A stretch of 24,191 nucleotides of DNA from a virus: the IMG/VR virus record IMGVR_UViG_3300017928_000011, positions 1 to 24,191 of that record, one strand, 5' to 3'. Shown piece by piece: positions 259-7,771 of this stretch. The notes below the pieces were generated by a model. That model saw only the letters and a list, made by a program, of their open reading frames with translations, ran no database searches and had not been told where the DNA came from. Within the stretch, counting starts at the first letter, position 1. Each line of letters opens with the position of its first letter. The translations under genes and the position numbers were made by a program.

Positions 259-954
259 TTAAATCCTTAACTTAGACTTTAATTCCTGCATTTTGTCATA
301 AGAATTCTTCATATCAGAAGGAGAATAATCCTTTCCACCAGCTACCATGCCATAGGGAGGAGTAGCGATGCCAGTAGGTTGATAGAAAGGAGTTCTCCTA
401 TTTTTATCCACAACATCCTGAATCGATTGTTTAGGCTCTTCTTTTTTGTGTAAACCTAAAAGCTTAATGTTTTTATATACAAGCTTTTGTCTTTCAAAAG
501 TATCAGGCATTTCTAAAATTGTCTCTGCAAGCTCAGGATCCTTTTCAGCAAACTTTTGAGCATGTTGCATTACTTCATAGAAGTCAGGATTGTTTTTCAT
601 CCAGTTCTGTTTACGATCTTCAGACAAAGCTTTTTGTACAGCTGTCTGTATTCGAGTATCTGTTTCTTGTTGTGTTTGTTGGCTAAACTTATTTAATTTC
701 TTATTCAGAGCTTTCTTATCGATGTAAGGCTCATCATTATCATCATCATCCTCTTCTTCTTTTCCTCGATACATCTTTTCTTGAGCTGCTTTTTCAATCT
801 GAGCAATCTTTTCCTCAGCTGCAAGTCGAGCTTGTCTCTCTTGTTCTAGTTTTCTTTGATACATTTCCTCTTGTTTACGGAAGTTCATTTCCTTGTCATT
901 TTGTCTGGAAGCATCTGGGTTTTGTTCATTAGAAGCACTGATATTTGTTGTCAT
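259..954 (-). CDS. Putative head scaffolding-like protein (231 aa)
   Basis: A highly charged helical protein. Residues 20-65 are rich in Q, E, K and R with coiled-coil character, followed by an acidic run EEEDDDDNDE (66-75). A second helical region spans about 80-180, and the C-terminus is short and basic (KSKLRI). No enzymatic motif is visible. Phage scaffolding proteins are typically small, helical and charged with a basic capsid-binding tail, and this gene lies downstream of terminase and portal in the same leftward direction, where scaffold normally precedes major capsid. The capsid gene itself would be beyond the left edge. The start has AGGT 5 nt upstream. Function is inferred from composition and position; no family signature was recognised. 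Confidence 0.6.
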   Translation of the reverse strand: MTTNISASNEQNPDASRQNDKEMNFRKQEEMYQRKLEQERQARLAAEEKIAQIEKAAQEKMYRGKEEEDDDDNDEPYIDKKALNKKLNKFSQQTQQETDTRIQTAVQKALSEDRKQNWMKNNPDFYEVMQHAQKFAEKDPELAETILEMPDTFERQKLVYKNIKLLGLHKKEEPKQSIQDVVDKNRRTPFYQPTGIATPPYGMVAGGKDYSPSDMKNSYDKMQELKSKLRI

Positions 955-2813: not shown

Positions 2814-4916
2814 TTATTGCCCTTGAGCTTGTCCAAATGCTTGACCTAATATTTCCGTAGCAAACTTATTAGCATCAGAAGATTGTTTTGCCTTTGATCT
2901 TTCTTCATCTTCTCTAAGGGCTTCTTCATTATTAATTCTTTGTACTTGATCGAGTCTAGCTTGTGTCTCTACTCCCCCAATGATTTGGATTACTTCAGCC
3001 ATTTCTTTAACAGCTTCCATTTTAGCTTTAGTAGAAAGACTTTGATTCTTGCTAATCTCGCTAAGACGCTCTTCCAAAAGACCAATATTACTTTCAGCAC
3101 GGCCATGTCTTTCTCTAGCTGTGGCGATTTGTGCAGCGGTTCTTGCATACATCTCCTTAAGTTTTGCTTCTTCAAAAGTGTGTTGAATATTCGTAGCTTC
3201 TTGCTGCATAACAGATTGTTGTTGCTCTTGTTGCTGCAAGAATTGAAGTGCTTCTGCTTTGCCTGTAATATTCAAATGAGGAACAACCATAGAAGGAGGG
3301 AAGACTTCTCTGCCAAATGCAGCATTAATATCCAAAAGAGATTGAGCTTGCATGTTCTGCTGGGTAGGCGTTAAATCTCCTTCCTCTACAATCACTTGAA
3401 ATTTAGCAAATACTTTTGAGTAAAAATGCGCTGTCGGTTCTTCACCAATGAGCAATCCTACCTTTTCCGCACTCCAATTATTAAGAACTATGCTAAGAAG
3501 CTTATCACCTAATAACTTAAGTGAATAATCCCACTGATCAAAATACTTTTGCAATACTGTTAGATTGGCAGCTTGTTTAAGCATTGTAGTGAGAGATGAA
3601 GCTTGCTTATCCCCTTGAGCAGACCAATTTTCTAGATCAATACCTGAGGTACCAAAAATAAGAGATCGCAATTGATCAGCCAAAGCCATGTCTGATTCAG
3701 GAACAGCCGAAGGAATAATCTTTTCACAATCTGTAAGTTCATATCCTTCATTAATAAGAACGTCCCAACCTTGACCAGACTTCTTAAGGTTATCTTCGTT
3801 AGCAACTGCACCGACTTTTCTTTTCCATCCTTGGTTGATAGTAGCTTCGGAAATGTCATGGTTAATGATTATTCGTCTATTAAGAAGGTAATTAGAATCA
3901 CGCATAGTGCGGACAAGACCGCGAACACGTAAGTCGTAATAATTGTTATGTGGCTCATAGTTCCATAACACGGGTACGAAAGGACAACCGTCAAATCCAA
4001 GAGGATTATCACCTTGAAACATAAGCTGATCATTTAATACTACCGCTAATTTCCAGCATGGGACCTCTACGGTTACCTCTTCCATGTCTGGGATAGCATA
4101 GAGAATCTGCTCTAATTGTCCATCTCCACCAGCAAAGTCAAAGAATTGATTACGTGTGCGACTATAGAGTCGTTTTTTCTTTCTTTTCCATTTGTACCAA
4201 ACATACGAAAGAACCATTAAGTCATTTCGCGCCATGTTGTAGTTTTCAGGAAGAAAATAGAATGAACCATAACGCTGTGGTGTACCAGCCATTGGAGCAA
4301 TATTTTCTAATTTATCGGGAAAACGAAACTCTGCTTCTTTCTTAGAAATATATTCTTGGCACCAGATAAATTGCGCATCTTCAAAACTTAAATCTCTTGC
4401 ATAAGGATCAACTAGAAAACTATTGTATTCCCATAGTTTAACTTTAAGCTCTCCTTGAGCTTGATCATCACCATTGTAATCAAGATAAGGCTGTAATAGA
4501 ACCATTCCAGTTACACAAGCTTGCTCGCATGCTCTTGAGAATTGATCGTGAATACCATTTGTATTAGAAACATGAGTAATTAAACGTGTGTATTGATCTG
4601 TAGTTTGTGGATCTGCGCCTTCAGCAGGAATATAATTGATCGATTTTCGATGTTGCCTCTGATAACCAGTTACCATATTCACAGGCTGCTGCAACAAATT
4701 GAAATAGAAATTCTGGTAACTAAAACTAGGAGTAAAATTAAAATAGCGATTAATAAACGTTTGCGAACCAGCGTAAAATAAAGTATCAATATTACTTTGG
4801 TTCCAACGAGCTTGTTCGATAGGCTGAAATTTACTGTAAAGATTGTCTAACCATTGACGAACGTTACCTTGATTGGGTTCTAAAGCATTGTTCCATGGGG
4901 GATAATAGAATGACGT
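2814..4916 (-). CDS. Portal protein, P22-like, probable ACG start (700 aa)
   Basis: Forms the dodecameric channel for DNA entry at the capsid vertex. The sequence fits P22-type portals: an N-terminal helical region, QQPVNMVTGYQRQHRKS, then an alpha/beta core with YNSFLVDPYARD and ISKKEAEFRFPD, and a long glutamine-rich helical C-terminus (about the last 170 residues) resembling the barrel. P22 gp1 is about 725 aa. The first usual start codon in frame is TTG at 4697, which would remove 73 residues of clearly coding sequence (SFYYPPWNNALEPNQGNVRQ and onward). The frame opens after a TAG at about 4926-4928, and the only start placed correctly behind the strong AGGAGGT (4927-4921) is ACG at 4916, 4 nt away. 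That fits an original ATG-TCA. The Shine-Dalgarno lies in a hairpin (4922-4954). Confidence 0.85.
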   Translation of the reverse strand, partial: TSFYYPPWNNALEPNQGNVRQWLDNLYSKFQPIEQARWNQSNIDTLFYAGSQTFINRYFNFTPSFSYQNFYFNLLQQPVNMVTGYQRQHRKSINYIPAEGADPQTTDQYTRLITHVSNTNGIHDQFSRACEQACVTGMVLLQPYLDYNGDDQAQGELKVKLWEYNSFLVDPYARDLSFEDAQFIWCQEYISKKEAEFRFPDKLENIAPMAGTPQRYGSFYFLPENYNMARNDLMVLSYVWYKWKRKKKRLYSRTRNQFFDFAGGDGQLEQILYAIPDMEEVTVEVPCWKLAVVLNDQLMFQGDNPLGFDGCPFVPVLWNYEPHNNYYDLRVRGLVRTMRDSNYLLNRRIIINHDISEATINQGWKRKVGAVANEDNLKKSGQGWDVLINEGYELTDCEKIIPSAVPESDMALADQLRSLIFGTSGIDLENWSAQGDKQASSLTTMLKQAANLTVLQKYFDQWDYSLKLLGDKLLSIVLNNWSAEKVGLLIGEEPTAHFYSKVFAKFQVIVEEGDLTPTQQNMQAQSLLDINAAFGREVFPPSMVVPHLNITGKAEALQFLQQQEQQQSVMQQEATNIQHTFEEAKLKEMYARTAAQIATARERHGRAESNIGLLEERLSEISKNQSLSTKAKMEAVKEMAEVIQIIGGVETQARLDQVQRINNEEALREDEERSKAKQSSDANKFATEILGQAFGQAQGQ

Positions 4917-4921
4917 AGGTA

Positions 4922-4954
4922 CCTCCTATCGAAGATAAAGCTTCTAATAGGAGA
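4922..4954 (-). promoter_or_regulatory. Hairpin sequestering the portal Shine-Dalgarno
   Basis: In the leftward transcript, CTCCTAT (4953-4947) pairs perfectly with ATAGGAG (4929-4923), and an inner GAAG (4944-4941) pairs with CTTC (4934-4931) around a 6-nt loop, with one G-U pair extending the base. Six of the seven bases of AGGAGGT are inside the stem. This is the layout of a translational control element such as an RNA thermometer or protein-bound operator. The fold is seen in sequence; the regulation is inferred. Confidence 0.55.
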
Positions 4955-4971
4955 TATATATTAAATTTTTT

Positions 4972-5000
4972 ATTATATCAATTGTTCAGTCGGATTTTAA
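4972..5000 (-). promoter_or_regulatory. Candidate promoter for portal operon
   Basis: On the minus strand TTAAAA (5000-4995), a 17-nt spacer and a consensus TATAAT (4977-4972) lie between terL and the portal. A start near 4965 would give a leader of about 50 nt consisting almost entirely of the hairpin. The -35 matches only 4 of 6. Confidence 0.4.
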
Positions 5001-5027: not shown

Positions 5028-6341
5028 TTATCTAAACCCTCCTTGTTGTTGTCCGAATCCATATCCAAAAGGATGATGCTTTTGCCTTAAATAGTTCTCT
5101 TGCTTTCTGTATTCTTCTTCTTGATCATATCCAGAATTTATTCGATGAGTCGCAACTGCATAACGAAGTGCATCAATGGCGTGATCATCTTTCTTTTTAG
5201 GTTCATCCCATCCCTTTTCGGCAGCTTTAGAATCCCACACATAGCTTTCTATTTCTCTAATCAAATTATCACAACCTTTGCAGATCAGCAAGTTTCCTTT
5301 CTTCATTTCACTAGTCATGCGCTGAATACCATAATCTACTTTATTATTAGAATCAGTCGTATGGATTCCCTTACGATTTAATTCTAATCGAAATGCAGCA
5401 GCGCTTGGGTCAATATAGATATTTTTCACTCCATAAGGACCCAGAAATTCTTGAATATCGTTAGCAAACTCACTAGCAGTCTTTTGTCTTCCTTTTTTAG
5501 TATGATCCCAAAAATATTCCTTCTCTACCCACATTTGTTTTTTATTTTCGCCAGTGTATTTGCCAGTACTCACTCCAATTAATACGCAAGCAAATGGATT
5601 ATCTGTACCATAATCAATGCCGGCAATCCAATATTCAGCATGAAAAGGACGCTCTATAACATATAAATCACGATCAAAGAAATCAAAGATTGCACCTTCA
5701 GCCAAGCACCATAAACCAAGATAATTACGTTTATAAAATAGACCTGAAGATGAATTCTTTAATTCTTTTTTGTAGTTATCATCCACAAAAGGGTTATCAT
5801 CCAATGTAAAGTGAAGAGAATAATAATTAGGATTGCCGGCTTCTGCTAAATCTATCCATTTCTTCAAAATGTGTGTGGGATGTTTAGGATTCATCGATGC
5901 AAACCCTTTACTCGTAGTCTTACTCAATCGAGAATTAATCATCTCAATAATAGCTTGCGGATACAAAGTCATCTCATCGCAATAAACCACTGAATAGGTA
6001 TCACCTTGGAAATTACCAATTGCGCCTTCATCTTTAGCACCTAATACAGTGATTACCTTATCTCTAAAGTAAAGTTTTTTGCCCGACCACGTACAGAATG
6101 GACGAAAAATCTCTAGTTCTTTAGACTCCATTAATAATCGAATGACATTTCTATATGCAGTATCAAAGGTATGACCGACAATATATATTTTACTATCTTC
6201 GCAGCGATCAGCTTCTTGCATGAATCTGAAAGCGCTAATGATGGTCTTGCCCGTTCGTACGCTTCCATGAGCAAGATTCCACCTTGCGTTGGAGTGAAGA
6301 AGAAATTCAAGCTGCTTCGATGAGAGTGGTGGAAGAGTCAT
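5028..6341 (-). CDS. terL: Terminase large subunit, PBSX/Terminase_3-like (437 aa)
   Basis: The DNA-packaging motor: an ATPase that pumps DNA through the portal and a nuclease that cuts the concatemer. Walker A is GSVRTGKT (26-33), Walker B VVYCDE (118-123) and a coupling motif SMNP is at 149-152. The RNase H-like nuclease domain follows with GIDYGTDNPFA (D243), IYIDPSAAAF (D311) and KKDDHAIDALRYAV (D385/D386 and D390). The length is usual for the PBSX/Terminase_3 family. The C-terminal tail is glutamine/glycine-rich. It is followed by the portal and preceded, after a 200-nt gap holding two plus-strand mini-ORFs, by the TerS-like gene. The ribosome site is weak. Confidence 0.95.
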   Translation of the reverse strand: MTLPPLSSKQLEFLLHSNARWNLAHGSVRTGKTIISAFRFMQEADRCEDSKIYIVGHTFDTAYRNVIRLLMESKELEIFRPFCTWSGKKLYFRDKVITVLGAKDEGAIGNFQGDTYSVVYCDEMTLYPQAIIEMINSRLSKTTSKGFASMNPKHPTHILKKWIDLAEAGNPNYYSLHFTLDDNPFVDDNYKKELKNSSSGLFYKRNYLGLWCLAEGAIFDFFDRDLYVIERPFHAEYWIAGIDYGTDNPFACVLIGVSTGKYTGENKKQMWVEKEYFWDHTKKGRQKTASEFANDIQEFLGPYGVKNIYIDPSAAAFRLELNRKGIHTTDSNNKVDYGIQRMTSEMKKGNLLICKGCDNLIREIESYVWDSKAAEKGWDEPKKKDDHAIDALRYAVATHRINSGYDQEEEYRKQENYLRQKHHPFGYGFGQQQGGFR

Positions 6342-7290: not shown

Positions 7291-7533
7291 ATGGAATGGT
7301 ATCATGTATGTGGAATGATTTTAGGAAATTTAGCAATCTTATTGCCTTTATGGATATGGGTACGTGCAGAATCCAGAGCTGATGCAAGACATATGGATGC
7401 TAAAATAGATTCTAATCGAGAATTAATTCATGTAATTCATAAAGAAACAATGCAAGTAATAAATGAAATTAAATTGGAAAGTAGAGATTTTCATCATCGA
7501 TTATTAGAAATTGAAAGAGCTCGAAAAACATGA
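7291..7533 (+). CDS. Membrane-anchored coiled-coil protein A (80 aa)
   Basis: One membrane segment at about residues 8-24 (ILGNLAILLPLWIWV) is followed by a charged helix ending in a conserved-looking tail INEIKLESRDFHHRLLEIER. The next gene has the same plan and almost the same tail, so the two are tandem paralogs. The start has AAGGAGA 8-9 nt upstream. The architecture (short outer part, single membrane span, cytoplasmic coiled coil) fits an inner-membrane protein that oligomerises. Superinfection immunity, holin or membrane-attachment roles are all possible; none is shown. It is first in a three-gene rightward unit. Confidence 0.7.
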   Translation: MEWYHVCGMILGNLAILLPLWIWVRAESRADARHMDAKIDSNRELIHVIHKETMQVINEIKLESRDFHHRLLEIERARKT

Positions 7534-7540
7534 GGTAAAT

Positions 7541-7771
7541 ATGAATATAGAAATTATTTATGTTATTGGTGGAAGCACTTTAGCTACGATTGGGTGTATG
7601 ATTAGTTTGTTTCTTTGGCTTCGATCTGAAGCAAATTCTGATCGAAAGCATTATGATAATCTACAAACTCAAGATCGAAGAGATTTCATTTCTATAATGA
7701 ATGAAATAAAATTAGAAAATAGAGATTTTCACCATCGGTTATTAGAAATTGAAAGAACAAGGAAATCATGA
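7541..7771 (+). CDS. Membrane-anchored coiled-coil protein B (76 aa)
   Basis: Paralog of the preceding gene: a membrane segment at about 5-24 (IIYVIGGSTLATIGCMISLF), then a charged helix and the tail MNEIKLENRDFHHRLLEIER, which differs from its neighbour at only a few positions. The ATG at 7541 is chosen because GAGGT precedes it by 4 nt; a longer in-frame start at 7511 lies inside the upstream gene and lacks such support. Its stop overlaps the ATG of the next gene (ATGA), which suggests coupled translation. Function unknown. Confidence 0.7.
   Translation: MNIEIIYVIGGSTLATIGCMISLFLWLRSEANSDRKHYDNLQTQDRRDFISIMNEIKLENRDFHHRLLEIERTRKS

Follow-up and report, generated by a model that had tools for sequence, protein, structure and literature searches.

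A P22-like portal gene with an ACG start codon and a Shine-Dalgarno hairpin, and the turnover of near-cognate starts among its relatives

Portal locus and reading frame

The window analyzed here is a 24,191-nt phage fragment, and the locus under study lies on its minus strand. The portal protein gene (2814..4916, (-)), which has an ACG start and 700 codons, was identified by its matches to PF16510 P22_portal (E=4e-48, residues 70-580 of the portal) and to phrog_156 of the PHROGs collection (E=2.4e-47, portal residues 21-664 against profile positions 10-663). Directly upstream lies the large terminase (TerL) gene (5028..6341, (-), ATG start; phrog_2, E=2.1e-54), which is the neighbour expected of a P22-like portal. 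TerL was used as a control gene, as was the probable scaffold gene (259..954, (-), ATG start), which was recognized by a weak PHROG scaffold match (E=0.007). Elsewhere in the window, two adjacent small ORFs (7291-7533 and 7511-7771) have nearly identical C-termini (EIKLESRDFHHRLLEIER), a tandem duplication.

The open portal frame extends from a TAG at 4928-4926 down to 2814. Its first in-frame ATG, GTG, or TTG is the TTG at 4697, 73 codons in, and a preliminary description of the locus, made from sequence alone, had proposed that coding extends across these 73 codons. This held. Among 132 portals, residues 2-73 showed a mean conservation of 84%, compared with 78%, 74%, and 47% in the remainder of the protein, and comparison of codons 2-73 with the nearest relative (L002) gave 36 synonymous codon differences and 1 non-synonymous difference. 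Because conservation is highest in this segment and the differences from L002 are almost only synonymous, coding sequence in the portal ORF extends well beyond TTG-4697 in the upstream direction, and codons 2-73 are its best-conserved portion.

Ahead of the portal start codon (ACG, 4914..4916, (-)), a Shine-Dalgarno sequence, AGGAGGT (4921..4927, (-)), is separated from it by 4 nt; a GGAGG-like site at similar spacing was found in most relatives. The ACG at 4916-4914 is the sole candidate start at proper spacing from AGGAGGT. The positions given in the preliminary description were all correct, with the TAG at 4928-4926, the Shine-Dalgarno at 4927-4921, the ACG at 4916-4914, and a TATAAT box at 4977-4972.

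In some relatives the portal ORF is broken near its N-terminus by an insertion (L175 at 3173-3355, and L086, L113, L125, L153, L161, L173, L174, L179, and L181). The insertion in L175 is similar to a group I intron (E=1.7e-4, a match under the Rfam gathering score), and the others were seen solely as broken frames. A conserved gene in L312 (17848-18159; MSVTTSGNLGPM...) is apparently cut after about 70 codons and is followed by a tail peptide (SLIDLDGRW...) like those read through the portal insertions, which suggests a similar insertion; no intron was detected there by Rfam. An int-alpA RNA (RF02996) scoring above the gathering score was located upstream of the portal in three relatives (L175:2752-2821, L179:1777-1841, and L281:2298-2365) and was not found in 16 other relatives scanned.

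Start codons in the relatives

Relatives were gathered from viral contigs and genome contigs, aligned using as anchor a conserved PPW motif 7 codons downstream of the start, and thinned to a set of 150 that were independent at less than 90% DNA identity. The codon at the position of the ACG was TTG in 36, ATT in 35, ATC in 25, ATG in 24, ACG in 14, GTG in 11, and CTG in 2, and it served as the start codon in 147 of the 150; in the other three (L030, L040, and L176) the start was displaced by one or two codons. With these three set aside, every codon at the start position is a one-base neighbour of ATG. Leucine is encoded there solely by TTG or CTG, threonine solely by ACG, and valine solely by GTG, and isoleucine is never encoded by ATA, a restriction with a log10 P of about -50 for an ordinary residue under the codon usage of the same genes. 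In 56 of the 150 relatives, the stretch from the in-frame stop upstream to codon 8 is free of ATG, GTG, and TTG. The ACG at 4916-4914 is therefore shown by sequence comparison to be a genuine portal start codon, as had been proposed, and it is not a sequencing error, since ACG stands at the same place in two near relatives, L002 and L008.

The suggestion in the preliminary description that the ACG is an ATG altered by one base required correction, since weak starts are the norm across this large clade of uncultured phages: ATT, ATC, ACG, or CTG was found in 76 of the 150 relatives, and ATG is a minority (24 of 150, 16%). Over the portal starts of L001-L308, ATA was absent although ATT and ATC were common, and ATA makes up 22% of the isoleucine codons in these genes. 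Portal relatives L081-L087 come from MAGs whose labels include Nitrospiraceae, Bacteroidetes, Patescibacteria, Pseudomonadota, and Simkania, and the contigs are about 40 kb long in several cases; the host is not established.

Only the portal showed this use of near-cognate starts. Among the control genes of the same phages, scaffold began with ATG in 69 of 70 cases, and TerL had ATG at its start site in 76 of 79 cases. The one scaffold start other than ATG (ATT in L219) comes immediately after an in-frame stop and appears to reflect alignment in the wrong frame. When 72 sequences, consisting of the relatives with larger flanks and the window, were scanned without supervision, the portal was the sole gene family with a mixed near-cognate start; in the other families with an assignable start, ATG predominated, accompanied by a few cases of GTG or TTG. 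The portal thus qualified as a weak-start gene, with weak starts in about half of the relatives, TTG or GTG in a further third, and ATG in other genes. Sequence comparison shows that mostly near-cognate starts are a clade habit of the portal gene alone.

Two other accounts of initiation at the portal were considered and rejected. Translational coupling to an upstream ORF was not supported, as just 29 of the 150 leaders have an ORF ending near the start. A phage-encoded initiator tRNA was likewise not supported, as the tRNA-Met of the window lacks initiator features and no Met tRNA was present in any relative scanned. The gene for this tRNA-Met (CAT), at 106-178 of the window, has anticodon-stem mismatches and is not initiator-like, and no second Met tRNA turned up in the loci scanned.

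Start turnover and Shine-Dalgarno strength

On a FastTree phylogeny of 132 portals, built with the first eight residues excluded, at least 64 changes of start codon were counted, including 34 switches between canonical (ATG, GTG, TTG) and weak (ATT, ATC, ACG, CTG) starts and 19 between ATG and non-ATG. Sequence comparison thus shows a codon that turns over fast among near-cognates and seldom becomes ATG.

The Shine-Dalgarno energy differed with the start codon, at -6.1 kcal/mol for ATG, -7.9 for TTG, -8.1 for GTG, -8.5 for ATC, -9.2 for ATT, and -9.65 for ACG. The difference between ATG and weak starts gave P=1.7e-8, and start weakness was correlated with Shine-Dalgarno energy (rank correlation -0.44, P=3e-8). 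Of the phylogenetically independent pairs, 7.5 had the stronger Shine-Dalgarno with the weak start and 0.5 showed the opposite, a modest result (median P 0.02). Weaker starts are thus shown by sequence comparison to be matched by stronger Shine-Dalgarno sequences, with modest support from independent pairs.

Leader hairpin

The window leader forms a hairpin (4920..4956, (-)) with an 11-bp stem and a small inner stem-loop, and its 3' arm holds the Shine-Dalgarno. The minimum free energy is -16 kcal/mol (z -3.7; 0 of 200 shuffles were as good), and the whole AGGAGGT is paired. The pairing of CTCCTAT (4953-4947) with ATAGGAG (4929-4923) given in the preliminary description was confirmed, and its proposal that a hairpin hides the Shine-Dalgarno held, the structure recurring in relatives with compensatory changes.

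The last 40 nt ahead of the start folded far better than shuffles across the 150 leaders (mean z -1.57, falling to about 0 further upstream), and the folding signal of the scaffold leader was small (z -0.48). Stems beat shuffles in which the Shine-Dalgarno and start were held fixed (P=1e-24). A strong stem was present in 72 of the 150 leaders; it covered the Shine-Dalgarno in 49 of these 72, and many of the others end against it. The sequences of the arms differ among phages (e.g. CTCCTAT/ATAGGAG, CCTTTGGGATTAA/TTAATCTCAGAGG, and ACTCTGATG/CATCGGAGT). When arms were swapped between phages, native pairs scored -8.6 kcal/mol compared with -5.9 kcal/mol for swapped pairs, with controls near null, and 29% of natives fell in the best 5% of swaps, compared with 5% and 3% in the controls. 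Because native arms outdo swapped arms while the arm sequences differ, sequence comparison shows that compensatory change has preserved a hairpin that covers or adjoins the Shine-Dalgarno; this is an average over the clade, with strong stems in about half of the leaders.

The leaders of the 150 relatives share no hairpin sequence or loop for a protein to recognize, and binding by a sequence-specific protein is accordingly disfavored. A link between hairpin strength and start weakness was not clear (P=0.05), and independent pairs showed none. The pairing probability of the Shine-Dalgarno was similar in leaders and shuffles (0.75 vs 0.72); since a G-rich site in an AT-rich leader becomes paired by chance, this test is uninformative, and the stem scores and the arm-swap test were used in its place.

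Upstream motif

The TATAAT box named in the preliminary description is present and is part of a longer conserved AT-rich motif, GATATAATAAAAAATTTAATATATATCTCC (4950..4979, (-)), which is a probable portal promoter and the best match to the motif in the whole window (18.1 bits). The motif, found by de novo search, has the form G-n4-AATAAAATnTTTAnTGnTA and ends most often about 33 or about 22 nt before the start. It scored at least 14 in 80 of the 150 leaders. In the 53 relatives with large flanks, the motif had 44 strong matches against an expectation of 6, and about 30 of these 44 lay at the portal. A scan for sigma-70 -35/-10 elements gave just slight enrichment, and the de novo motif was far clearer. 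The motif is mostly portal-specific, and a dedicated promoter, with a transcript start inferred at the foot of the hairpin, is its likeliest reading. The TerL stop is located a median of 524 nt upstream of the portal start, and TerL often lies 500-1600 nt upstream; the leader therefore travels with the portal. A near-palindrome, GTCATATTAAAATTTTTAATATATGAC, at 995-1024 of the window, between the scaffold gene and a divergent gene at 1049, also fits the portal leader motif (13.6 bits).

Interpretation

The most likely interpretation is that the non-AUG starts, the hairpin, and the balance with the Shine-Dalgarno constitute an evolved, tuned low level of portal translation that is probably sensitive to IF3, although there are no expression data and the effect of IF3 is inferred. 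According to this model, a short transcript would begin at the conserved motif that immediately precedes the hairpin, its leader would consist of little beyond the hairpin, the Shine-Dalgarno, and the weak start, and the ACG would be decoded by initiator fMet-tRNA. These features would jointly hold portal translation low and within a narrow range, as befits a ring of 12 copies, and the control may also involve host IF3, a factor that rejects codons of this kind. Portals are dodecameric rings at one vertex (PMC3185693), and a low dose therefore fits. Low portal output had been proposed in the preliminary description and is supported only indirectly, through the compensation between start and Shine-Dalgarno. 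It is possible that the strong Shine-Dalgarno gives moderate rather than low output.

A bolder version of the model, which we regard as tentative and would not favor over its negation, is that the lineage doses its portal by deliberately poor initiation, with a near-cognate start selected to stay weak, balanced by the Shine-Dalgarno and the covarying hairpin, and read through host IF3 so that portal supply tracks the initiation-factor state of the cell.

The main rival is relaxed selection, in which few portal copies are needed, any near-cognate start with a decent Shine-Dalgarno suffices, and weakness is merely tolerated. The share of ATG (16%), which is about that expected from equal use of all workable ATG neighbours, and the many switches on the portal tree are in its favor. 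Against it, ATG portals carry a weaker Shine-Dalgarno than weak-start portals and the hairpin is maintained by covariation, both of which suggest a kept set-point, and no such drift is seen in scaffold or TerL. Relaxed selection is considered unlikely.

Also unlikely is a regulated switch, in which the hairpin and weak start hold the portal off until translation is opened by a trigger such as temperature, a phage protein, or altered availability of IF3 or 30S late in infection. The double gate formed by hairpin and weak start, the promoter-like motif belonging to the portal itself, and the precedent of sigR and infC for regulation of weak starts (PMC5472188) favor it; however, the hairpin has no conserved sequence or loop readable by a protein, and no trigger has been identified.

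Host-wide relaxation of start selection, which the preliminary description had offered as host-specific start use, is very unlikely: the host is unknown, which leaves room for it, but it predicts weak starts elsewhere and the neighbouring and other genes of the same phages use ATG. Assembly or sequencing error, the other alternative offered there, is excluded by the recurrence of the pattern in 150 independent contigs and by the ACG common to near relatives. Finally, a portal truly starting at TTG 4697 or at conserved Met codon 81, with the upstream part untranslated, is all but excluded: TTG 4697 is the first start usable by ordinary gene finders and the first in-frame ATG is at codon index 80 in 80 of the 150 relatives, but this is refuted by the conservation and nearly exclusively synonymous change of codons 2-73, the portal profile alignment begins at residue 21, and relatives starting at residue 74 or later, which would have overturned the ACG start, were not seen.

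Comparison with known systems

Bacterial genes start with AUG in 82% of cases, GUG in 14%, UUG in 4%, and CUG in 0.024%, and the outputs relative to AUG are 58% for GUG, 30% for UUG, and 0.86% for CUG (PMC11497404). Codons outside ATG, GTG, and TTG are very rare in bacteria, yet they are found here at one essential structural gene in half of 150 independent phages. In the open-access literature searched, no report was found of a conserved non-AUG start in a portal or any other virion gene of a phage. Portal dosage control becomes testable in this clade, which also provides a natural data set of trade-offs between start codon and Shine-Dalgarno, and gene finders limited to ATG, GTG, and TTG would truncate the portal in many of these viruses.

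The portal of Pseudomonas phage KPP25, a distant cultured P22-like homologue (about 23% identity), is also located downstream of the terminase; unlike the window portal, it has an ATG start and follows directly after the terminase gene. A sister-clade search with the KPP25 portal found almost no relatives.

Among cellular genes, infC (AUU) and sigR (GUC) are the closest precedents and rest on the principle inferred for the portal. The cvfC1 and ccpN genes of S. aureus (AUU and AUA) resemble the portal in combining non-canonical starts with a strong, extended Shine-Dalgarno (PMC13009471), and in poor medium their starts give about 10% of the output of AUG (PMC13009471); they differ in being cellular, and clade-wide turnover of the start is not described in the relevant sections of PMC13009471. 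The sigR gene of Streptomyces, which has an IF3-repressed GTC start, is similar in that a rare start fixes the ratio of a protein to its partner (PMC5472188), but it encodes a cellular regulator rather than a virion protein and uses GTC. The infC gene (IF3) starts with ATT in E. coli, ATC in Streptomyces, and AUA in S. aureus (PMC5472188; PMC13009471) and, like the portal, is a single gene that keeps a non-canonical start, whose weakness serves to control its level (PMC5472188; PMC13009471). However, infC regulates its own decoder and the portal has no role in initiation, and at the portal the codon varies freely among ATG neighbours with ATA always absent, and the leader contributes a hairpin as well.
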